From positions 1-30,337 of the IMG/VR virus record IMGVR_UViG_3300027659_000144: a DNA stretch of 30,337 nucleotides. The stretch is one strand, 5' to 3'. The position numbers and the translations under genes were made by a program. Under the pieces are notes generated by a model, which was not told where the DNA came from, ran no database searches, and worked only from the letters and a program-made list of their open reading frames with translations. Below are positions 3,124 through 16,234 of the stretch, piece by piece. Numbering within the stretch: position 1 is the stretch's first letter; every line of letters begins with the position of its first letter. Origin of the DNA: a virus.

Positions 3124-3140
3124 TCATGGAGAATAAGTAT

Positions 3141-4835
3141 ATGACAACAAATGATTCGTCGCTAGGTAATTCCGGTGCTGCAGGCAATGCACCACTGGAT
3201 GCAGAGGTGTCTGTCAAATTTAGCCCTATGGTTGAATTAGGACAATCTGGTCTCCGCCGTACTTCCGGTTATGTGTACGAAGAATTTTTGCCTGCCCTTA
3301 AGGGTAGAACTGCTATCCAAGTGTTCCGAGAGATGCGGGAAAATGATCCCATTATCGGTGCTTTGTTATTTGCAATGGACAGACTTATTCGCCAGATTGA
3401 ATGGCGTGTTGAAGCAGCATCCAACTCAAAAGAAGATAAAGATGCTGCTGAGTTTTTAGAACAATGCATGGATGATATGTCTCATACGTGGGATGACTTT
3501 ATGACTGAAGTTTTAACTATGCTTGCTTATGGTTGGTCATGGCATGAGATTGTTTATAAAAAGCGTGTTGGTCCTTGGGAAAAAGATGGATCTAAAAGAT
3601 CTAAGTACACAGATGGAAAGATAGGCTGGAGAAAGATTCCTATCCGTTCTCAGGAAACTTGGTTGCGTTGGATATTTGATGACACTGGTGGCATTAAAGC
3701 TATGATTCAATTAGCTCCACCTGTGTACAAGCAAACTGTTATTCCTATTGAGAAGTCTTTGTTATTCAGAACTTCAATGGTAAAGAATAACCCAGAAGGA
3801 CGTAGTTTGCTTAGAAATGCTTACCGTCCTTGGTGGGTAAAGAAAAGACTTGAAGAGCATGAAGCTATTGGTGTTGAAAGAGACTTAGCCGGTCTTCCTG
3901 TGGCTAAAGTTCCAGCTCGTATGCTTGGCGCTAAAGCCACTCCAGAAGAAAAGCAAATGGTTGAAGCTTTTAAGAAGTTAGTTAAAAGTGTTAGAAGAGA
4001 TGAGCAAGAAGGTATTGTTCTTCCTCAAGAATTTGATCAAGATAGCAAGCAGCCTTTATACGAATTCGAATTGCTATCTAGTTCAGGTGGTAGACAATTT
4101 AATACTGGTGAGATTATTAAGCGATACGAAGAGCGTATGCTTATGTCGGTGTTGGCGGACTTCATCTTGGTTGGTCACCAATCAAGTGGTGGATCTTATG
4201 CTTTGCATACTGATAAAACTGGTATGTTCAGAGCTACTATTAACTCTATAGCTCAAAGTATTGCGGATACTATTAACCGTCATGCAGTGCCTAGATTGTT
4301 CTCTGTTAACGGTTGGAAGCCTAATGAACTTCCTAAAATTGTTCCTGGCGATGTTGATCCTCCAGACTTAACTCAGCTGTCGTCTTTCATGGGTCAGCTG
4401 TCGTCTGCTGGTGTACAATGGTTTCCAGACCCAGAATTGGAAAAATTCTTACGTTCTGCAGCACGTTTGCCGGATCTTGATCCAGAAGCTGAAAAGGTTA
4501 AAGAGCAGCAAGCTAAGCAAGCCCAGATCCTTGCTTTGGCTCAACAGCAGATGGAAGGCATACAAATGCAGCAACAAGTCCAGCAGGGCCTACATGCTAC
4601 TCAGAATAGTGAAATGGGTGTATCTGAGAAGCAGATGACTTTGCAACAACAGCAAGAACAAATGAATAATCCAGATGCTTCACATCAGGCACAAATGCAA
4701 CAATCTGACGAACTTCACGCTCAGAAGATGAGCCAGTCAAATGATACGCACCAGTTGTCTATTAAGCAGAAATTAGAACAAGCTAAAGCAGCACAAAAGA
4801 AAACTCCACCTCCTGCTAGTAAAAAGGGTAAATAA
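3141..4835 (+). CDS. Portal protein (DUF935 / Mu gp29-like)
   Basis: The portal is the dodecameric ring at the head vertex through which DNA enters and leaves, and on which the head assembles. The stretch FREMRENDPIIGALLF, then IEWRVE, a long helical region, AYGWSWHEIVYK, and later FILVGHQSSGGSYALHTDK and SIADTINRHAVPRLF match the DUF935 portal family, which includes Mu gp29. I prefer the ATG at 3141 (564 residues) because GGAGA at 3128-3132 is well placed for it; the ATG at 3126 would add five residues without a ribosome site. After about 4490 the protein becomes a long Gln/Met-rich, probably coiled-coil tail ending in a Lys/Pro stretch. That tail is longer than I expect for the core fold. 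The stop codon overlaps the next start as TAATG. Confidence 0.92.
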   Translation: MTTNDSSLGNSGAAGNAPLDAEVSVKFSPMVELGQSGLRRTSGYVYEEFLPALKGRTAIQVFREMRENDPIIGALLFAMDRLIRQIEWRVEAASNSKEDKDAAEFLEQCMDDMSHTWDDFMTEVLTMLAYGWSWHEIVYKKRVGPWEKDGSKRSKYTDGKIGWRKIPIRSQETWLRWIFDDTGGIKAMIQLAPPVYKQTVIPIEKSLLFRTSMVKNNPEGRSLLRNAYRPWWVKKRLEEHEAIGVERDLAGLPVAKVPARMLGAKATPEEKQMVEAFKKLVKSVRRDEQEGIVLPQEFDQDSKQPLYEFELLSSSGGRQFNTGEIIKRYEERMLMSVLADFILVGHQSSGGSYALHTDKTGMFRATINSIAQSIADTINRHAVPRLFSVNGWKPNELPKIVPGDVDPPDLTQLSSFMGQLSSAGVQWFPDPELEKFLRSAARLPDLDPEAEKVKEQQAKQAQILALAQQQMEGIQMQQQVQQGLHATQNSEMGVSEKQMTLQQQQEQMNNPDASHQAQMQQSDELHAQKMSQSNDTHQLSIKQKLEQAKAAQKKTPPPASKKGK

Positions 4836-7800
4836 TGACTTCTAAGAATGAGTTCTTTGGAGTGTCGGACAACGATCCACATTTCGATGCAGATGCCGCT
4901 ATGGCTACTTATAATGTCATCATGAAGATGAGCAATAACGAAGCGTGGGCTTTTTCTTCCATGCTGTTGTTGGATCACTACCCTAATATGTTGCGTTTCC
5001 ACGGTAAAGAATTACAGCAGACTATTGACGCTACTGTAAGCAAGAAGCTTGAAGAGTTTAAGATTTCTAGTGCTAGAGCCATTGTCAGCAAGTCTAGAAA
5101 TGGCGAAGATATTGATGGAATCTCTAAAGCGGTAGAGGTTATCTCTAAGGACTTCTACGACGCGTGGGAAAGATCTTTAAACGCTTCTAAGCAACAGCGT
5201 GGTCCTGGTGGTCAATTCCGTCGTTACAAGACTAAGATTGATTATGTTGATTCGAGACCTTTGACTCCAAAACATGCTGAAGCTAAGAACATAGCTCCTG
5301 CAAATAATAATCCTGACTCTAAAAATAAAAGAACGCCAGTTAAATTAAAACCTGAAGAAGAATCTCAAAGGCAGCAAGCTTATTTACAATTACAGCAAAC
5401 TCTTTCTCCGTTTATGAACGCAGGAGAAGCTGGTGTTGTTGAACTTAAAAGAGAAAATGGTTCTTCTACTCTTCATGATCTAGAATCAACTCTTGAGGAA
5501 TTTAATGATTCATACAAGAGTCCTGCAAATAGAAAAAACCCTGTTACTTCAGCTACTTTAGTTATTAACCCAGATATTAATGTTGCTGGAGCATCTTACG
5601 ACATGCTTGGATCTCCTACTCCATATAATGTTGCAGCGACTATCCCTGCAGCTGTTAGTAGAGAAGAAGGCAGTTTTGCTTCTAAATGGAATAAGCGAGA
5701 AGAAGACGACAAGTACAATCCTACTAATCTTGCTTACCGTAGAATTGGTGCAGCTTCTGAGTTGTCAGATACTTTAGCTACTGCAGCTGGTGTAAACACT
5801 AATCCAAAGGTTAGGCTTGCTATCGCATCAGGCAAGTTTGTTGGTAACAGTGGTCAAGATGTGCAATCCGTTATAGGCCCAACAGCTGATAAAGCAGCTT
5901 ATCGTTACCGTGGTACTGAGAAGACTCCTGAACCACGTTTGCAGGCGATAATTAACACTGCTAGACAAAAGGAAGCTACTATAAAGGGAAGCCCTGATAG
6001 GGCTCGTAATTTTGTTATCTACGGTACTTCTAATGGCGCAGTTGATCCAAGTAATGATGCTAGAGACCCTGGGTACAGATTAGGTAATAAATCATACAAA
6101 GAGTCCCCAATGATTGATTACTTTAAGGGAAGACTTCCTAGTAAAGAGTTAGTGCAGTTACAGGCCAAGAGCGGAACTATAACTCCTTCTGAAGGTATTA
6201 TCATTAACCGCCAAGGTAAGGTTACAACTCAAGCAGTTGGATATGGCGAGGATAACTACCTTCCATTCAACTTGGCTAATCTTAAAGCCTTACGCGGTGG
6301 TGAGTACGTTAGAACTCGCTCTATGGGTGGCCCTACTACTGAAGACGTATACGCTGGATTAATGACTGGTGCTAGAGCAGCTACTGTCGTATCTAACTCT
6401 GGTACGTTTACTATTGAATTTGATCCTACATTTAGAGGGTCTAGAAGATACTCCGATAAAGCTGCGCGTATGATATCTAGATATGGATATCTTTTGGATG
6501 CAGTTGAAAGTGGAGAAGTTACTTTAGGCGATATAGATTCTGCTCGTAAAAAAGAATTAAGAACTGAAGCAGAACAGTACTCTAACGGTGATGATAAAAT
6601 TGCTGAAGATAGGTACAATAAATTATTAGTTAAAGAAAAAAAGAATCCTACGTTATCTAAATTTCAAAAAGATAAGATAGCCGAAGATATTCTTAATGAT
6701 ACGGCCTCTAAATTAAAGATGGCTGATGGTAGTGAAGCTTCTATAGAAGAGTTACTAGGTAACTGGGTTAACACTCGCGCTGGTTCAGATTCCGAAAAAA
6801 GAGATTTTCTCACTAGTCAAGTATCTAATCCAGAGGGTGCTATCAGGGCTCTTAACCTGCAGTCTGAATATGATCAGGCTATCACTCAGGCTACCATTGA
6901 GTACCAAAAAACCTTACGTCCAATTACTCTTAACGGACAAGGTTACGCATACGCTTTATCTGCCTTGCAGGAGCAATTCCCGTATTACATTACTAATATC
7001 TCTTATAGAGACTTAGAAAGTGGATACGATCAAGGATACGTTAAGCCTAGATTTAACCGCCCAGCTAAAGCTCTTTCTGGCTACTTTGATCCTACTATTC
7101 GTGGCGAAGGAGATATTACAGTTGCCGGAGAAAAAAAGACAGGTAAAGTCAGCGCTGATAAAACTCGTTTTCAAAATATTTACGGAAGCAAGCAAGCGCT
7201 TGGAGAAGAAAGCAAGCAATCTGCTAATGCCGTTGATGAATTAGGAAACTCTATTTCTGGTCAAAAATCTGGGGATACAGTAAAAGATTTACAATCTGGC
7301 TCTGGTTCTTTAAAGGTTAATATTACTCCAGATCCTATTGAAGTATTAAAATCTGTAGAACAAATACACGCAAATGATATTATTACTGTTAATGGTGAAC
7401 CTGTTTCTTTAAAGAAAAATGGTGATTGGGACCCAGCGTTAAAGAAAAGATATCCTGCTTTGTATGGAACTACATTAGAAGATCTTAGTATGGCTTTTGA
7501 AGGAAACACTTCTGCTGATATACAGCTAATAGATCAACTCAGAAAAGATGTTATTAACATCCAAGAAAATAACCAGCAAATATCTTTTGGTTCAGTAACT
7601 GGAAAACTAAATATTAGTCCAGACGCTTTAAGAAGCGCATCTGGTCAGATTTCGTTGTCTCCATTTAATCCTAGTAGTTCCTTAAGTAGAAGAAATATAT
7701 TAGAGAATAAAAACGCTTATTATAATCTTGGTCCTGATTTAAATCCTGGTGGAACATCTAATGATTATAGAAGAGTAATTCAAAGTGATTATAGTACTTT

Positions 7801-8157: not shown

Positions 8158-10554
8158 ATGCCTACTTATGCAGACTATCAGAAGCAGGAAAACTTTCTAT
8201 CTGATAATACCCCACCATCAGTATTGCCAGATCCTGCTGCGTTAAAAGATCCTCTTGAGGATATAGCTAATGGTATTAGCGCTAGTTTTATAACCTACAA
8301 CACTGCTGCCCAAAAACAGATCAAAGAAGAAAAAGCTCCAGTTTCTATTGCTGAGGCGATAGCTATAACTGTAGCGGTTGCTATTGGATTGCGGTGGGTA
8401 TTTAAAAAGAACGCTACAGATCTAGTATCTCAAGCTATGATGTTGAACGCACCAGGTTTGCCTAAAGAAACTGCTGATCAATTGTCAGAGGTATATCTAG
8501 ACCAGCTTTTAGACGAGTTGGACGAAACTACAATTGATGCGGTAATTAAAGCTTTTGAAGCTGAGTTAGCTAATAACACTGTACCCAGTATTGCCTGGGA
8601 AAGAGTTCTTAAAGGATATGGTTTAGATGAACGTTCATTACGTGCTTATATGGATGCTTACGCTAAAAACCAATATAGATCGAATACAAATTTAGATAAT
8701 AAAGTATTTGACGCTTTGTTTAAAAGATCTATGGTCATTGGGGAAAATGAAGCTTTTGCTGCTTCTCAAACAGGTAAATCAATTTCTTGGTTAGTATTGC
8801 AGAGCAATGGAGTCATTCCCGAGGGCTCAGGGAAGCGCTGGGTTACTTCTAATGATGAACTAGTCTGTCCCATCTGTAGGCCGTTAGATGGCGTTGTAGT
8901 GGGTTTAAGCGACCAATTTGATACTGGTCAAGGAAAAGTATGGGCACCAGATGCTCATGTAAATTGCCGGTGTGATATTGAGCTGGATATACCTGAAGAA
9001 ATTGAAAAGGCTGGGTCTGTTAGCTATATGCAAAGATCCCAGACTATTACAAACGATGATCATTGGAAAGATCAACGTAGAGACGCTCGCGGTCGCTGGA
9101 TTGATATGAATCAGAATGCTCCTAAGCTTAAGACCTTAGAACCCCCTGGGGCTATTTCATATAGACCCGATACAGATACGCTTTTAATGATGGCAGATTT
9201 AGACTCTATTAATACCGCTAATAGAGAGACTGCTATTACTAGCACTTCTCAATTACAGCAAACTAAAGCGCCATTAGTTAAAACTTTAGACTCGGTTATA
9301 CAATCTGCTAGAGATGAATACTTACAAACTATTTCTTCTATAGCTACTGACGCATATCAGAAATCTTTAGTTGACCAAGCTATCTTTATGAAAGCTATGG
9401 TTGAAGTACGAGCCCAACAGATTGCTGAAGCTAAAGTACAAACGGTTAGTGCAGAACCAGAAGCTGAAGTTGAAGCTGAAGTCGAAGTTGAAACTGAGCT
9501 TAGTACAACACCAGATAGTCCTATTCCTCCGGCTAAAACTAATACTGGTTTAGTTGTGGCAATACCTGCTGCTTATTTTTTGAATTTAAGACAAAAAGCT
9601 ATAGATGAAAAAATAAACGCTTACGACGAAAATATTGATACTGATATATATAGCTTGCCTAAAGATTCAAAAGATTTAGAAATAGGCTCCGTTATAGATT
9701 TTGATGCAGCTAAAAAAGTTAGCGATAGAATATCATCAGATCGAATTGGATTTGATATGGATATATCTAGCCCTGAAGAATTAAAAAGATTACGCGATGC
9801 AGCTAAAACAGACTATGCTTTGCAAGGTATGACTATTAACAATGGTTCTATTTTAGACGTTATTAGTAGAGCTAATGCCGATAGAAAAGATTACCTAGAA
9901 GGTAGAAATATAGAAAGCCTAGACGATCAAATATTAAACGCTATCAAAAGAGAAGATCATATTGGTTTTGTTCGGGACGAAGATTCTATGTATTACGAAG
10001 ATTTATCAGAAGCTGCAGATAGATTTAGAAGTCTTGAAGAAGATAGAAAAGAACTACGCCAAGATATGTACGACCAGTTATCTGATACAGTAATGTCTTC
10101 TGGAAATAGTGTGGATGCTTATGTGAGACAAATGAGCAACGATGATATTATGGAAGTTTATGGGAATGCTGGTATAAATCCTCCAGTTGATAATCTACGA
10201 GAAGAATTTATTAACGCTTTGCCTGAAAGTTTTGAATCAAACTCCCCATTGTTCGCTAGTTTAGATGACTGGAACTTCGAAGCTAATGCTCAAGATTTTG
10301 CTGCTAGTTCTCAATCTTACGGTAGAGTTTCTGATTATTTAGATAGTGAGATAGCTAGTACATTAGCTGGTTCTACAGTTCCAGTGTTTATTTTTGAAAC
10401 TCCAAATGGTACAACTACAGTAGGAGACGACATAGCTGACGTTAATGGTAGATACAAAGTTAGCAATATATCTATTCAGCCATTGTATGACTTTGATATT
10501 GATGCTGAAAAAAGTATTACATATACTTTAACTCCATTAGAAGATAACGACTAG
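8158..10554 (+). CDS. MuF-like minor head protein with long C-terminal extension
   Basis: Residues 1-270 are a Mu gpF-type minor head protein, which normally sits near the portal and is needed for head assembly or DNA ejection. The hallmark is at residues 227-272: RWVTSNDELVCPIC, then PDAHVNCRCD, placing C237, C240, H267, C270 and C272 in a probable metal site. Residues 301-314 (DHWKDQRRDARGRW) form the basic turn often seen in MuF fusion proteins between the MuF domain and a variable cargo domain. The last 480 or so residues are acidic and mostly helical, with a Glu-Ala-Val run at 433-448 and a beta-rich final 60 residues; I see no catalytic motif. An AAGG at 8148-8151 serves as ribosome site. 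In other phages MuF C-terminal domains can be toxins or enzymes delivered with DNA; whether this one is cannot be told here. Confidence 0.9.
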   Translation: MPTYADYQKQENFLSDNTPPSVLPDPAALKDPLEDIANGISASFITYNTAAQKQIKEEKAPVSIAEAIAITVAVAIGLRWVFKKNATDLVSQAMMLNAPGLPKETADQLSEVYLDQLLDELDETTIDAVIKAFEAELANNTVPSIAWERVLKGYGLDERSLRAYMDAYAKNQYRSNTNLDNKVFDALFKRSMVIGENEAFAASQTGKSISWLVLQSNGVIPEGSGKRWVTSNDELVCPICRPLDGVVVGLSDQFDTGQGKVWAPDAHVNCRCDIELDIPEEIEKAGSVSYMQRSQTITNDDHWKDQRRDARGRWIDMNQNAPKLKTLEPPGAISYRPDTDTLLMMADLDSINTANRETAITSTSQLQQTKAPLVKTLDSVIQSARDEYLQTISSIATDAYQKSLVDQAIFMKAMVEVRAQQIAEAKVQTVSAEPEAEVEAEVEVETELSTTPDSPIPPAKTNTGLVVAIPAAYFLNLRQKAIDEKINAYDENIDTDIYSLPKDSKDLEIGSVIDFDAAKKVSDRISSDRIGFDMDISSPEELKRLRDAAKTDYALQGMTINNGSILDVISRANADRKDYLEGRNIESLDDQILNAIKREDHIGFVRDEDSMYYEDLSEAADRFRSLEEDRKELRQDMYDQLSDTVMSSGNSVDAYVRQMSNDDIMEVYGNAGINPPVDNLREEFINALPESFESNSPLFASLDDWNFEANAQDFAASSQSYGRVSDYLDSEIASTLAGSTVPVFIFETPNGTTTVGDDIADVNGRYKVSNISIQPLYDFDIDAEKSITYTLTPLEDND

Positions 10555-10576: not shown

Positions 10577-11698
10577 ATGAATAATGTTGATCCAGTCTTC
10601 TCAGCCGTCATTGACGAGCTTTTTGATGGTGCAATTGATTCTAGTGAGTTGCAACACGAAATCACTAAAATGAATCCAGATGGCGCTGATATGCATATCA
10701 TGGGTCCATTAGGGGCTGAAAATAAGCGTAAGCTTAAGAAAAAAACTACCCGTAGATATATATCTAAAGCTGGCGCTGCTATGCCTCCCATGACAGGTCC
10801 TATGACACCTAAACAGGCTGAACAAAGAAAAAAGGTAGCAAACTTCGGATTAGCTGGTAATGCCGTTGCTACAGCTGGTGGATTACATGCTATGCATTTA
10901 ACTTTGAAAAATCCTAATCTTCCTGGCATTAAAAGAGTTAAAACAATGACAAATACGTCTTCTAATAAGCACAGAAAGATATTTGAAGAGGTAAAGCCTA
11001 AAAACCCTGGAACGCGCAGAGGAAATCCTACTAAAATAAATAGAGCTGTAATAACTGCTGGCAAAAAAATGGCTCAAATACCTGGCATTAAAACAGTAGC
11101 TAGTAATCCTAAAAAAGTACTAGCTGCAAGTGCATCTGGATGGGCAGCACTACACGGAACTGAATTGGCTGCTGACTATGTTGCGAATAGATCCCTAGCG
11201 AGAGATAGAAGACAAGCTATGGCTGTTATAAATGCAAATAAGCCAAAAAAGATTTCTAAGAATAGCGATGTTTTTGATGTTACTTGGACCGGAACTATCT
11301 CTAAAGTAAACAAAGAAAAGCGCCAAGTATTTGGTTGGGCTTCCGTTACTCACGTTGACGGTCAGCCTGTTGTGGATAGACAACTTGATTTCATGCCATT
11401 GGACGAGCTAGAAAACGCTGCTTATCAGTATGTTATTGAATCTCGTACAGGTGGAGATATGCACCGTAGAGTATCTAAAGCTGCCGATGCTCCAGTTCAC
11501 GTATCAGACATGATTGAGTCTTTTGTTGTTACGCCTGAAAAACTGGTTGGAATGGGTCTTCCTGGGGATGCTATTAATCCTGGTTGGTGGGTTGGTTACA
11601 AGATCAACAATGACGAGCAATGGGAATTAGTTAAGGCAGGTAAGCGTACAGGTTTTAGCGTCCACGGTGCTGGTAAAAGAACTTCTAAAGAGATATAA
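10577..11698 (+). CDS. XkdF-type head maturation protease with basic N-terminal extension
   Basis: The C-terminal 145 residues match the XkdF/S78-like phage serine protease that cleaves scaffold and capsid proteins during head maturation: VFGWASVTHVDGQPVVD at 251-267, ELENAAYQYV at 277-286, GGDMHRRV with H296, MIESFVVTPEKL with S315, GWWVGYKI and a closing GFSVHG at 359-364. H296 and S315 are the likely catalytic pair. The first 225 residues are unusual: an acidic start, then a strongly basic, Gly/Ala-rich stretch with hydrophobic patches near 89-106 and 182-202, like the two proteins that follow. The protease may release this part as an internal head protein or use it for targeting. No strong ribosome site precedes the ATG; only AGAG at 10571-10574. 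The next gene starts two bases after its stop. Confidence 0.85.
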   Translation: MNNVDPVFSAVIDELFDGAIDSSELQHEITKMNPDGADMHIMGPLGAENKRKLKKKTTRRYISKAGAAMPPMTGPMTPKQAEQRKKVANFGLAGNAVATAGGLHAMHLTLKNPNLPGIKRVKTMTNTSSNKHRKIFEEVKPKNPGTRRGNPTKINRAVITAGKKMAQIPGIKTVASNPKKVLAASASGWAALHGTELAADYVANRSLARDRRQAMAVINANKPKKISKNSDVFDVTWTGTISKVNKEKRQVFGWASVTHVDGQPVVDRQLDFMPLDELENAAYQYVIESRTGGDMHRRVSKAADAPVHVSDMIESFVVTPEKLVGMGLPGDAINPGWWVGYKINNDEQWELVKAGKRTGFSVHGAGKRTSKEI

Positions 11699-12557: not shown

Positions 12558-12968
12558 ATGTCTGATTTTATTATTTATAAAAGCGCGTTTGGTGTTGACC
12601 ATGAAGTCATCTCCAAGCGTTCAGACGTGTATAATCCAGAAGCAAGACGAATGAGCAGAAATAAAGCCGAAACTGGTGCGCTAGCTACTGGTTCCGCTGT
12701 TGCTGGAACTATAGCAACTAGAGGCGCAATAAATAGTGGAATACCCTCAAAAGTTAAAAATGTGGCAGGTCGTTCTATAAATGTTGATAACTATGTTCGT
12801 AGACAAAAACCTGTTTTAACAAACCCAAAGATAAGTTTGAAGAGTTTAAAAATAATACGTAAACCTGCTGCATATGCTGCTGGAGCTGCTGCTCTAGGAG
12901 CTGGTGCTGTATTGAATGCAAAAGACCGTTCTAGAGGCGGTAGACCATATAAAACGTGGTACTCATAA
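12558..12968 (+). CDS. Basic protein with SAFGVDHxxISK N-terminus
   Basis: This 136-residue protein is not recognised. Residues 9-20 read SAFGVDHEVISK, matching residues 3-14 of the protein at 15728-16234 in ten of twelve positions, while most shared codons differ synonymously. The rest is basic with two hydrophobic Gly/Ala patches, residues 40-57 (GALATGSAVAGTIATRGA) and 103-119 (PAAYAAGAAALGAGAV), which could form a helical hairpin. The Arg/Lys-rich segments on either side would suit contact with DNA or membrane. It lies between the basic 276-residue protein and the scaffold gene, at the edge of the strongly expressed capsid cassette. GGGAA at 12549-12553 is a weak ribosome site. I recall similar SAFG-type short N-termini in other actinophage head-region proteins but cannot name a function. 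Confidence 0.8.
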   Translation: MSDFIIYKSAFGVDHEVISKRSDVYNPEARRMSRNKAETGALATGSAVAGTIATRGAINSGIPSKVKNVAGRSINVDNYVRRQKPVLTNPKISLKSLKIIRKPAAYAAGAAALGAGAVLNAKDRSRGGRPYKTWYS

Positions 12969-13050
12969 ATCACACATTAATAGTTAGAATATTAGTTTAT
13001 AAGAGACTTGCATCATAATAGATGATTGTAAGAACAAGGAGGCAATAAAT
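12969..13050 (+). promoter_or_regulatory. Leader region ahead of the scaffold-capsid cassette
   Basis: This 82-base gap is the longest in the window and stands directly before the codon-biased capsid genes. It is AT-rich, contains a short inverted repeat (ATCAT at 13012-13016, ATGAT at 13022-13026), a -10-like CATAAT at 13014-13019 and a very good AAGGAGG ribosome site at 13036-13042. The nine bases AAGAGACTT at 13001-13009 recur at 18254-18262 ahead of the tail tube gene. I see no convincing -35 box, so a promoter here is only a candidate. Confidence 0.3.
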
Positions 13051-13824
13051 ATGCCGCGTATCAATGAATTGACGAATATGTCATTTGACGAGGTTTCACT
13101 CGTTGATGTACCAGCCAATCAGCACGCAAACATAGTTATTGCTAAACGGGCTACCAAGGAGGAAACTGTGCCTGAGATCTATGACGAAGATGGCTACGCC
13201 ATTGACGTTGATGACCTTGAAGAAGGTGACATTATCGTTGATGAAGACGGTAATGAATACGAATGGGTCATTGACGAAGAATCTGCTGATGTGCCAGAAC
13301 TCATCAGCGTCGGTAAGAGCTACACCTTTGCGGACCAGGTACGTGAGGAGCTGTCTAAGGCTCTTGACTCCACTGACCGCGATGCTCTTATTGCTAAGGC
13401 TGCAGACGAAATTGCTGCTGCTGACTACCGTGCAAACCAAGCAGTTGAGATTGCTAAGGCTGAGCGCGACTTGCGCTTAGAGCGCGAGTATGTTGAAGTT
13501 GCCAAGCAGTACAACGTGCCGATTGATGAGGACGAATTGGGTCCAGTCTTGAAGCGCTGTGCAGAAAGCTTGAGCTACGAAGACTGCGCCGTTATCCACA
13601 AGGCACTCAGCTCTGCTGGTGAAATGATTTATGCCGAGGTTGGTGTCCAGGGTTCTGGTTCCAACAACGACATTTTCAATGAAGTTGACTATTTTGCTGA
13701 GGAAGCTGTTTCCAAGGCATTTGGCAACGACGAAGAGATTTCAAAGGCTGAGGCCATTGAAAAGATCTTCGAACTCAATCCTGCCGCCTACGACGAGTAC
13801 TTAGCTACTCGCTACTCACGATAA
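13051..13824 (+). CDS. Putative capsid scaffold / assembly protein
   Basis: This 257-residue acidic protein lies just before the decoration and capsid genes, where scaffolds usually lie. The N-terminus (NELTNMSFDEVSLVDVPANQ, residues 5-24, followed by an AKR basic turn) is the EVSLVDxPANxHA motif found in phage prohead proteases and protease-associated scaffold proteins. A very acidic beta-like stretch spans residues 40-85, then a long charged helical region, about 95-150, suited to a coiled coil. It has several S/A-K-A sites (for example VSKAFG and ISKAEA) that the maturation protease might cut. Codons are clearly biased to C- and G-ending forms, as in the capsid gene, which suggests high expression. 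A perfect AAGGAGG site at 13036-13042 fixes the start. Scaffold function is inferred from position, length and composition. Confidence 0.8.
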   Translation: MPRINELTNMSFDEVSLVDVPANQHANIVIAKRATKEETVPEIYDEDGYAIDVDDLEEGDIIVDEDGNEYEWVIDEESADVPELISVGKSYTFADQVREELSKALDSTDRDALIAKAADEIAAADYRANQAVEIAKAERDLRLEREYVEVAKQYNVPIDEDELGPVLKRCAESLSYEDCAVIHKALSSAGEMIYAEVGVQGSGSNNDIFNEVDYFAEEAVSKAFGNDEEISKAEAIEKIFELNPAAYDEYLATRYSR

Positions 13825-13839
13825 AGGGAGGGAACCAAA

Positions 13840-14274
13840 ATGGCATATGATGAGAATCTAGTAACTATTACCCTTCCTGCTGCTTCTGGTATTGCGTCTA
13901 AGACTGGTGTTTCCGGTGTTGACACTCCTACTGGATCAGATCATGGAGGAAAGCAATACTATTTCGTGAAGGTAGACTCTTCAGGAAACGCCGCATTGGG
14001 AGCAAGTGGAACCTCTGAAGTCATCATTGGTGTTCTTCAGAACAAGCCACAGGTTACTGGTGCTGCAGCTACTATTGCTACTGGTGGAATTAGTCGCGTT
14101 GTTGTTGGAACTGGCGGTGTCACTGCTGGTGACGCTATTAAGGTTTCTTCAACCGGAGCTGCCGTTCCTGTTGGAACGCTCGCAACTGATCTCGCTGCTG
14201 GTATAGTCGTTGGTGTCGCACTCAAGACTGGTGTTGCTGGAGCAATTGTTCCTGTTGCACTGAGAATTTCATAA
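13840..14274 (+). CDS. Head decoration protein (DUF2190-like)
   Basis: This 144-residue protein is rich in Gly, Ala, Val and Thr, with almost no charged residues after residue 50, and its beta pattern is typical of small capsid cement or decoration proteins. The order FVKVDSSGNAALG, then EVIIGVLQNKPQ, then SRVVVGTGGVTAGDAIKVSS and GIVVGVALKTG resembles the DUF2190 family (capsid decoration). It is directly followed by the major capsid gene. GGGAGG at 13827-13832 is a strong ribosome site. Codon use is C- and G-biased, as expected for a protein needed in hundreds of copies. It should coat the outside of the mature head. Confidence 0.85.
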   Translation: MAYDENLVTITLPAASGIASKTGVSGVDTPTGSDHGGKQYYFVKVDSSGNAALGASGTSEVIIGVLQNKPQVTGAAATIATGGISRVVVGTGGVTAGDAIKVSSTGAAVPVGTLATDLAAGIVVGVALKTGVAGAIVPVALRIS

Positions 14275-14286
14275 GGAGGATAGACA

Positions 14287-15321
14287 ATGCCGAACCCCAC
14301 ACAGAGCGATCTGCACGTTAATGCTCCTTTAACTAACGTCAGTATTGCTTACATCCAAAGCACTGACCTTTACATCGCGGACAAAGTGTTCCCGAAGGTC
14401 AATGTTGCTAAGCAGTCTGACCTGTACTGGAAGTACAGCAAGTCTGACTGGCGTAGAACTGACGTTGAGCGTCGTGCTCCTAGCACGGAGTCGAAGGGAA
14501 CTGGTTGGAAGACCACGACCGATTCGTACTTTGCTCACGTCTATGCTGTTCACAAGGATATTGATGACCAGCTTCGTGCCAACGCTGACTCTAACTTCAG
14601 CCTTGACTCGGATGCAACCAAGTTCATCACTAACCAACTGTTGCTGAAGCGCGACATTGACTGGGTAAACACCTACATGAAGACTGGTGTTTGGGGTACT
14701 AACTATGTTGGTACCACTAACTTCGTCAAATGGTCGGACACTGCTTCAAACCCTGTTCAAGATGTTAACACCTGGATTATGAACTTCCGTGAGATTAACG
14801 GATATGCTCCTAACTTCATGGTTGTTGCTCCGCAGGTTATGAATGCGCTGAAGGCCAACAAGGATATCCTTGACCGTATTCGTTACACCCAGCGTGGTGT
14901 CATTACTGAGGATCTCATTGCGAGCCTCCTTGGTGTTGGTAAGATCTATGTGGCTTGGGCAACCAAGGCAACTGATGTTGACGACTCGACTCCTCCGATT
15001 GCTGCAGGCCCTGAACTCAACGACGTTGAGGCCCAGGATGCTGCTACTGGATACAAGTTCCTTACTTCTTCGGAAGCAGCTTCTACTGCAACCCAGAAGA
15101 GCTTGTTGCTTGGTTACGCTCCTTCTGGACCGTCCTTGCTCACGCCTTCTGCTGGTTACACGTTCGTTTGGAACGGTTACCAGGGTGGAAATGGAAACGG
15201 TATCAAGGTCTCCACATTCCGTCAGGAACTTATTAAGTCTGACAGAATCGAAGGCGAAATGACCTATGACCAGAAGATTGTTTCTGCTGACATGGGAATC
15301 TTCGCTTCCGACGTTATCTAA
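14287..15321 (+). CDS. Major capsid protein
   Basis: This 344-residue protein is the probable shell subunit. The segment ADKVFPKVNVAKQSD, then WKYSKSDWRR, RAPSTESKGTGW, AVHKDIDDQLRANAD, LLLKRDIDWVNTYMKTGVWG and the C-terminal WNGYQGG with a final EGEMTYDQKIV are characteristic, from memory, of major capsid proteins in a broad group of actinophages; the fold is presumably HK97-type. AAGGAGG at 14273-14279, overlapping the previous stop codon, gives a very strong start. Codons are markedly biased (Gly, Thr, Asn and Lys with C or G endings), the strongest sign of high expression in the window. A stable hairpin follows the stop at 15335-15369. No N-terminal delta domain is evident, in agreement with a separate scaffold gene upstream. 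Confidence 0.93.
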   Translation: MPNPTQSDLHVNAPLTNVSIAYIQSTDLYIADKVFPKVNVAKQSDLYWKYSKSDWRRTDVERRAPSTESKGTGWKTTTDSYFAHVYAVHKDIDDQLRANADSNFSLDSDATKFITNQLLLKRDIDWVNTYMKTGVWGTNYVGTTNFVKWSDTASNPVQDVNTWIMNFREINGYAPNFMVVAPQVMNALKANKDILDRIRYTQRGVITEDLIASLLGVGKIYVAWATKATDVDDSTPPIAAGPELNDVEAQDAATGYKFLTSSEAASTATQKSLLLGYAPSGPSLLTPSAGYTFVWNGYQGGNGNGIKVSTFRQELIKSDRIEGEMTYDQKIVSADMGIFASDVI

Positions 15322-15334
15322 TTAATATAGAGAA

Positions 15335-15369
15335 AGGGGGCCAGTTTCCATATAGGTTTCTGGCCCCCT
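15335..15369 (+). terminator. Strong hairpin after the major capsid gene
   Basis: AGGGGGCCAG at 15335-15344 pairs perfectly with CTGGCCCCCT at 15360-15369, giving a ten-base-pair, GC-rich stem with a 15-base loop. It starts 14 bases after the capsid stop codon. No run of T follows, so it is not a classic intrinsic terminator; it may be a partial terminator or may protect the capsid mRNA 3' end. The next gene's AAGGAG ribosome site begins eight bases after the stem. Confidence 0.6.
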
Positions 15370-15388
15370 AACTCATAAGGAGATACTA

Positions 15389-15721
15389 ATGCCATTTTAT
15401 GCAAACGGATCTTTTATCTGCAACGGTACTGATTACAACCGTGGTGATATTATGAAACTTGAAGATGTTAATGCCCTCAATGTGCTTGAGCGTATGGTTG
15501 ATTCTGGTCTTATTGTGACCGATGAAGATCTAAGTTCGCGCGGTTGGCTTACACACGTTATTGCTGGTAGCGCTATTCACTTTGATGAATTTAAGCGTAA
15601 CACTGGTGCAGTTGCTGCTAAGACCACTCCTGAAGCTCCTGTGGCCGTTAAGAAAGCTGCAGTTCCTGTCAAGAAAGCAACTCCTGCTCCGGTTAAAAAA
15701 GCTACTCCAGAGTCAAAGTAG
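15389..15721 (+). CDS. Small head protein with lysine/proline/alanine-rich tail
   Basis: This 110-residue protein has two parts. Residues 1-70 look folded: a beta start (MPFYANGSFICNGTDYNRGD), a helix containing LNVLERMVDSGLI, and a second hydrophobic part ending HFDEFKR. From residue 71 on it is a disordered basic tail with three VKKA units spaced by Pro/Ala/Thr, like a histone H1 tail. Small proteins between the capsid and connector genes are often head-tail or capsid accessory proteins. The tail could bind packaged DNA or the acidic surface of another virion protein. AAGGAGA at 15377-15383 is a strong ribosome site and the gene follows the capsid hairpin directly, so its expression may depend on read-through. 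Function is not known. Confidence 0.8.
   Translation: MPFYANGSFICNGTDYNRGDIMKLEDVNALNVLERMVDSGLIVTDEDLSSRGWLTHVIAGSAIHFDEFKRNTGAVAAKTTPEAPVAVKKAAVPVKKATPAPVKKATPESK
15647..15703 (+). repeat. Three VKKA(x)P units in the basic tail
   Basis: Codons 87-105 of the gene contain VKKA three times, at residues 87-90, 94-97 and 102-105, separated by VP and TPAP. The Lys-Ala-Pro pattern resembles the tail repeats of histone H1 and of some bacterial nucleoid proteins. Confidence 0.7.
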
Positions 15722-15727
15722 TAAGCC

Positions 15728-16234
15728 ATGCTTAGCGCATTTGGCGTAGATCACGGCTCTATTAGCAAGGCTGATAGAAAGCGTAGAGTAGGTCCTTCTA
15801 CTGTGCCAGATTCTTTAGCTGCTATTATTCCTGGTAGTACTGTTAGATCTTATGAATACTCCCCACCAGGTAAAAAATTAAAGAACGCTTCTAGAAACTT
15901 TGGCGCTATTACTGCTGGTGGTTTAGCAGGTGGTGCAGTTGGAGCAACTTTAGCTGCGCCTTTAATTAGAAAAATACCTGTAAAAAGTGTTGTAAACGCC
16001 CCTAAATTTTTGCAGGGTAGAGGTGGCAACAAATTATGGGGTAACTCTAAAGCGTTAATTCCTAATGGTGTACAGCCTAAAGGATCACGAGCTAAACCAA
16101 TACAGATAGAAGGTTCAGCTCTTAAAAATTACGCCCAAGCTGGAGCGTGGGGTGCGGGAAGCACTGCAGGTTCTACATTGTTAGGAACTAAGTCTTATAG
16201 AAAGATACGTAACGAAAATAGACAGTACCAGTAG
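15728..16234 (+). CDS. Second basic protein with SAFGVDHxxISK N-terminus
   Basis: This 168-residue protein is not recognised. Residues 3-14 read SAFGVDHGSISK, the same peptide and spacing as in the protein at 12558-12968, followed by a basic ADRKRR. Two hydrophobic Gly/Ala patches occur at residues 58-80 (FGAITAGGLAGGAVGATLA) and 136-153 (AQAGAWGAGSTAGSTLLG). Apart from the N-terminal peptide and this general design, I see no clear alignment with the other protein. It begins six bases after the previous stop without a clear ribosome site, so translation is probably coupled. Codon use is again AT-rich, in sharp contrast to the capsid gene just before. A structural or internal head role is likely from position; a membrane or DNA contact is a guess from composition. 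Confidence 0.78.
   Translation: MLSAFGVDHGSISKADRKRRVGPSTVPDSLAAIIPGSTVRSYEYSPPGKKLKNASRNFGAITAGGLAGGAVGATLAAPLIRKIPVKSVVNAPKFLQGRGGNKLWGNSKALIPNGVQPKGSRAKPIQIEGSALKNYAQAGAWGAGSTAGSTLLGTKSYRKIRNENRQYQ

Follow-up and report, generated by a model that had tools for sequence, protein, structure and literature searches.

In phage T4, the first 10 residues of the internal protein IPIII suffice for targeting, and the residues used for targeting and for processing are separate (PMC9026906). Two reports on phage P1 describe a capsid targeting sequence in DarB by which a reporter protein enters the head (PMC9024508) and a co-packaged protein, DarA, that undergoes processing (PMC12810830), and encapsulins load dedicated cargo into a shell with the HK97 fold (PMC8346489). 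Encapsulin loading is peptide-based. The HK97 capsid protein itself loses residues 1-103, its scaffold domain (PMC10275583). Here we analyze a short peptide shared by the starts of two genes in an uncultured viral contig (IMG/VR record IMGVR_UViG_3300027659_000144; 30.3 kb, 40% G+C; the whole stretch is called the window below). It comprises a heptad, SAFGV[DE]H (the tag), followed by a hydrophobic residue, a second residue and Lys (hydrophobic-x-K). As judged from sequence comparisons, the heptad is probably a capsid-targeting peptide, and hydrophobic-x-K the site at which a maturation protease removes it.

The two proteins begin MSDFIIYK-SAFGVDH-EVISK (open reading frame [ORF] 12558-12968) and ML-SAFGVDH-GSISK (ORF 15728-16234). 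An earlier note on this DNA had paired these peptides, and its positions and residue numbers proved correct: SAFGVDH-EV-ISK (12582-12617) and SAFGVDH-GS-ISK (15734-15769) are identical at 10 of 12 residues. Its reading of the codons was also right, since five of the seven SAFGVDH codons differ, all synonymously, as do two of the three ISK codons, with Ser of ISK spelled AGC in one copy and TCC in the other; over the 36 bases, 23 are identical. The remainder of the two proteins shows no significant likeness, as had been stated, and these are not ordinary paralogues: whole-length alignment is absent, and the 12-mer alone is found by BLASTP (E 5e-4; next segment, E 5.2). Shuffled versions of both proteins reached a best 12-mer identity of 8 (60 shuffles) versus the 10 observed, and the pattern written as degenerate DNA matched exactly these two sites in the window and none in 100 shuffles. 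The tagged genes do flank the scaffold-decoration-capsid block (13051, 13840, and 14287), and the tag of ORF 12558 has hydrophobic-x-K on either side.

Relatives of ORF 15728 lead to an uncultured contig, L004, in which the products of five small genes, all lying downstream of the capsid gene, start with M[LI]SAFGV[DE]HG and a larger protein encoded upstream of that gene ends in SAFGIDHSH. Uncultured viral contigs were scanned with DNA patterns for the peptide: a pattern that demanded Ser-Lys downstream matched 75 stretches, M-x-S(AGY)AFG[VIL][DE]H with no downstream requirement matched 110, and a pattern in which a stop codon had to follow His directly matched 6. After duplicate removal, these amounted to 236 copies of [SN]AFG[VIL][DE]H, with up to about nine per contig. 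The tag is restricted to head-type loci: homologues of the window's head or tail genes also occur in 100 of 112 strict-tag loci, and where the remaining loci lie on longer contigs, these mostly hold such homologues elsewhere. In loci with a capsid gene, tag copies lie on the capsid strand without exception (125:0), most of them within 4 kb of that gene. When 74 loci were chosen solely by their capsid gene, 66 tags were found on the same strand, with none on the opposite strand and no reversed-peptide controls, and hydrophobic-x-K flanked 66/66 of them; an open search for N-terminal repeats in capsid-selected loci returned this tag and a few unrelated local paralogues. Because the 112 copies of SAFGVDH are written in 99 distinct 21-mers, selection appears to act on the peptide. 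The earlier note had proposed just this, with a capsid-targeting or a protease-recognition signal as examples, and both halves gain support, the first from a heptad present on many unrelated head-module cargoes of one phage lineage and the second from a separate hydrophobic-x-K. Most copies of the peptide are N-terminal, as in the window pair, but C-terminal and internal ones exist.

The pattern is not scattered among host proteins, again in line with the earlier note: in bacterial and archaeal genomes (257 billion bases), a slightly narrower form had three matches, none starting a plausible gene. A short-peptide search of cultured phages with three tag versions, able to detect only near-perfect copies, gave no match at E 10, and the heptad was absent from the stretches examined of the five cultured phages whose capsid proteins are closest. 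Nothing was found in the open literature searched by tag letter strings, subscription papers and preprints being outside the search, and the full-length tagged proteins of the window matched nothing significant among cultured phages, Pfam, or PHROGs. The cultured phages, bacterial genomes, curated families, and open papers searched all lacked the heptad.

At N-terminal tags, [ILVFM][SAETN]K stands 0-9 residues downstream in 178/189 cases, and the remaining 11 carry variants such as IYK, VYK, IVK, VDK, or IHK. The same pattern was found in 6% of shuffled cargoes (maximum, 10.6%) and in 0.5% of cases at residues +20-33 downstream. For C-terminal and internal tags, hydrophobic-x-K stands no more than 10 residues before the heptad in 30/30 cases (mean of 5.3 and maximum of 12 in shuffles), as in PYAKRDAV-SAFGIDH-SH-stop, KVSK-SAFGVDH-E-stop, and KVSK-SAFGVDH-EVSK, and most internal tags have it on either side. 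ISK behaves as an element of its own, always between tag and cargo, and the resulting orders, namely, tag-site-cargo, cargo-site-tag, and cargo-site-tag-site-cargo, are those expected where a tag must be removed. Every tag examined has an adjoining hydrophobic-x-K that matches the sites in the scaffold and in HK97, and from this we infer cleavage.

The tag is also modular. When tag and cut element were removed from 184 complete N-tagged proteins, the cargoes fell into 79 clusters at E 1e-3 and 98 at E 1e-5, the largest family having 20 members, and in 46 of the 49 loci with at least two tagged proteins, all cargoes belonged to different clusters. In an alignment of 54 diverse members, essentially M-x-SAFGV[DE]HGxISK remains (mean column identity, 6%). 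The tagged proteins have a median whole length of 117 residues, a net charge of +14 per 100 residues, and a Gly plus Ala content of one third; all cargo clusters are basic and most are Gly/Ala-rich, a likeness of character and not of sequence. Comparison of the 54 diverse members with Pfam and PHROG returned one GNAT acetyltransferase, one Gly-zipper model, and one unnamed PHROG. A tag on dozens of unrelated small proteins suggests a general head-loading route with later removal of the label. The GNAT match (PF00583, E 1.9e-6) belongs to an N-tagged ORF of L038, whose product is a candidate for an enzyme packaged much as T4 Alt is. Among larger proteins, an 827-residue product (L136:6350-8830) bears an N-terminal tag, SAFGVDHHFEVSK, and a variant tag, VAKSASSAFGIVHD, at its C-terminus, and two basic proteins (L070, minus-strand position 5877, and L017:2454) are divided into distinct segments by several hydrophobic-x-K sites and internal tags, so that they look like polyproteins.

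The same tripeptide fills the scaffold. Scaffold homologues (n = 76) contain on average 6.96 copies of [ILVF][SAE]K versus 0.96 expected (7.25-fold), with control patterns at 0.61x (Lys replaced by Arg) and 0.07x (first two positions swapped). Site positions are kept, K32 and K103 in 56/56 and K116 and K222 in 52/56, and in the scaffold-position proteins of five cultured relatives, [ILVF]xK is enriched and [ILVF]xR is not. The tripeptide is at or below 1x in capsid, connector, and tail tube proteins, and reaches 2.66x in the protease protein, 2.2x in tape-measure (where control patterns are also raised), and 1.6x in terminase. The protease encoded at 10577 matches the Peptidase_S78_2 profile with 58.1 bits against a curated cut-off of 24; His296 and Ser361, invariant in 27 homologues, are its candidate catalytic residues. 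Hydrophobic-x-K is likely the site of this maturation protease. Outside the catalytic domain, near-invariant positions are few and include K31 and K228, both within hydrophobic-x-K. These two bound an N-terminal extension (window 10577-11260) that is variable, basic, and Gly/Ala-rich like the tagged cargoes, as if it were a cargo freed by self-cleavage.

We propose that a protein with an N-terminal, C-terminal, or internal heptad would be drawn into the head during assembly through binding to one of the head's components, the most probable receptors being the scaffold and the inner face of the capsid. The XkdF-type protease, which would also cut the scaffold at sites of the hydrophobic-x-K type, would cut after Lys of the neighbouring hydrophobic-[S/A/E]-K and free the small basic cargo inside the head, where it probably lies with the DNA and leaves with it on ejection. 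With the tag peptide SAFGVDHGEISK at the N- or C-terminus, the heptad would be needed for packaging and Lys for release.

Such a device would resemble the T4 capsid targeting sequence, a short peptide common to divergent internal head proteins that overlaps or adjoins the site of the maturation protease (PMC9026906). The T4-type trait, one short peptide at the ends of several head-module proteins that have no other relationship, is found here as well. Phage lineage and peptide are unrelated, however, and the tag is also used at the C-terminus and internally, with dozens of cargo clusters versus a handful in T4. Moreover, T4 gp21 cuts after Glu, whereas the cut element here ends in Lys and the protease is of the XkdF type (Peptidase_S78_2). 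The capsid-localising sequence of P1 is comparable to the proposed tag, but the available portions of the P1 reports mention no short tag shared by many proteins. Encapsulin loading relies on a peptide that is not removed by a protease, and the setting here, unlike that of encapsulins, is viral head assembly. The closest parallel for the cut is HK97 gp4/gp5, where the scaffold part is cut off after hydrophobic-x-Lys (the genome record reads FNK before the residue-103 boundary and SLG after it), although what is cut in HK97 is a scaffold domain belonging to the capsid protein itself and there is no cargo tag.

The tag could instead be a docking motif kept on the mature protein, anchoring it to the inner capsid wall, the portal, or DNA, with hydrophobic-x-K as an uncut part of the binding surface. 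The tag is head-linked, and such an anchor would be modular too, but its two parts would not be expected to lie anywhere from 0 to 9 residues apart, nor the tripeptide to switch sides at C-terminal tags, flank most internal tags on both, and be concentrated in the scaffold, which a protease removes in many phages; we thus consider permanent docking unlikely. Another destination for tagged proteins, such as the membrane of the host, a terminase or portal motor, or the tail, would fit the position of some tagged genes beside terminase and portal genes and the Gly/Ala-rich stretches of many cargoes, which could be membrane-active. It is nonetheless quite improbable given that the same cut element fills the scaffold, that most tagged genes in capsid loci are near the capsid gene, and that all of the cargo has the basic character one would predict of proteins packaged together with DNA.

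Two further explanations would deprive the peptide of a function as such. Ordinary paralogy, or a recent exchange of gene starts, would make the shared N-terminus an inherited feature, and some tagged cargoes do form families; yet nearly every copy has different DNA, the window pair has no other similarity, C-terminal and internal copies contradict the idea, and a homologous domain is tagged at opposite ends in different phages, which leaves it very doubtful. A translated nucleic-acid signal, such as a promoter, ribosome-binding, or packaging element, would explain why most copies directly follow a start codon, but synonymous codon variation, seen also in the window where Ser of ISK is AGC in one copy and TCC in the other, contradicts it, as do C-terminal copies that stop directly after the tag, and we give it hardly any credence. 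Capsid targeting with proteolytic removal accounts best for these observations, but several points weigh against it. Part of the tag set came from the scan that demanded Ser-Lys downstream, although the second scan and the capsid-selected loci were free of that demand. No recognisable tag was seen in about 44 of the 74 related-capsid loci, some of which are short and others of which perhaps carry a different tag, and some tagged contigs, such as L025, show no relative of the window's capsid or portal, though these contigs are fragmentary. The AlphaFold model of the protease has low confidence (mean predicted local distance difference test score, 63), too poor to confirm a herpes/HK97-type protease fold, and had no PDB match. 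Finally, neither a cultured representative nor virion proteomics was found for the tagged lineage.

The tag also appears to swap ends. A hidden Markov model built from eight domains that carry the tag C-terminally in relatives scores the cargo of ORF 12558 at 21.7 bits (maximum of 18.0 in 3000 shuffles), and the C-tagged protein of L004 occupies the same gene slot, between the protease and scaffold genes. Since the homology of the 12558 domain is modest, we take the swap as supporting evidence only. In sister capsid lineages, the heptad reads SVWGVDH, SAWGVEH, or SYWGIDH, and another variant, DAFGVER-[ST]DISK, marks up to six or seven genes per contig; positions 1 and 7 tend to pair, S or N with H and D with R. 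Runs of genes starting with M[LI]DAFGVER.DISK, in which D..R replaces S..H, occur in L025:2299-5559 and its relatives L235, L249, and L245, and the internal tags on the L025 contig are SAFGVEH. An argument for receptor co-evolution from uniformity of F or W within genomes was dropped; some contigs mix variants, and L025 mixes S..H and D..R. In capsid-related loci where the tag was not recognised (L174:8018-8596, L174:9822-10145, and L168:9279-9803), basic proteins start near a cut element (MVAKAYRDLEE, MISKAQREIEK) and may use another tag or none. In the capsid tree, 34 tagged members form a single clade with strong support and the rest of the tree is mixed; on this evidence, the device seems to be of long standing in the lineage.

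Phage proteins that are packed and injected with DNA are hard to recognise, being small, fast-changing, and unlike database entries. A tag readable from sequence would make it possible to catalogue them in uncultured viruses, where at least 79 clusters have already emerged and hardly any match Pfam or PHROG. It would also let the cut rule of the protease be predicted and would provide another case of capsid targeting in the manner of T4, evolved independently and usable at either protein end. A wider proposition, for and against which we see the balance as even, is that a large uncultured lineage has a position-independent capsid-entry code, in which the heptad and an intervening hydrophobic-x-K would bring about prohead loading, release by the protease, and carriage into the host; its subtypes (S-AFGV[DE]-H, S-VWGVD-H, and D-AFGVE-R) may co-evolve with a scaffold or capsid receptor, and it would mark some hundred kinds of injected proteins.

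The gene set of the window comprises terminase, Mu-type portal, Mu F-like, XkdF-type protease, scaffold-like, capsid, connector, and tail genes, those for terminase, connector, and tail being assigned by gene order and content. The features discussed here are listed below.

Table 1. Head-module genes, tags, and putative cut sites in the window.
Feature	Position	Strand	Basis or remark
Mu-type portal protein	3126..4835	+	PF06074, E 2.6e-36
Mu F-like head morphogenesis protein	8158..10554	+	PF04233, E 1.9e-8
Maturation protease of the XkdF type (Peptidase_S78_2), N-terminal extension basic and Gly/Ala-rich; proposed tag remover	10577..11698	+	PF14550, E 1.2e-15
Tagged basic protein 1, 136 aa	12558..12968	+	Homologues of its cargo domain in relatives carry the tag C-terminally
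Hydrophobic-x-K before tag 1, I-Y-K, residues 6-8	12573..12581	+	Context IIYK-SAFGVDH-EVISK
Tag copy 1, SAFGVDH, residues 9-15 of ORF 12558	12582..12602	+	
Putative cut site after tag 1, I-S-K	12609..12617	+	Position class tested across relatives
Scaffold-like protein, several conserved hydrophobic-x-K sites	13051..13824	+	[ILVF][SAE]K enrichment
Small decoration-like protein, encoded between scaffold and capsid	13840..14274	+	Function inferred from position; conserved in relatives
Major capsid protein (phrog_1005)	14287..15321	+	E 1.6e-75
Tagged basic Gly/Ala-rich protein 2, 168 aa	15728..16234	+	Tagged relatives in L009, L015, L022, L031, L066, L178
Tag copy 2, SAFGVDH, residues 3-9 of ORF 15728	15734..15754	+	
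Putative cut site after tag 2, I-S-K	15761..15769	+	

The decoration-like protein matched no database family. A further relative of ORF 15728, in L169, carries a variant of the tag.

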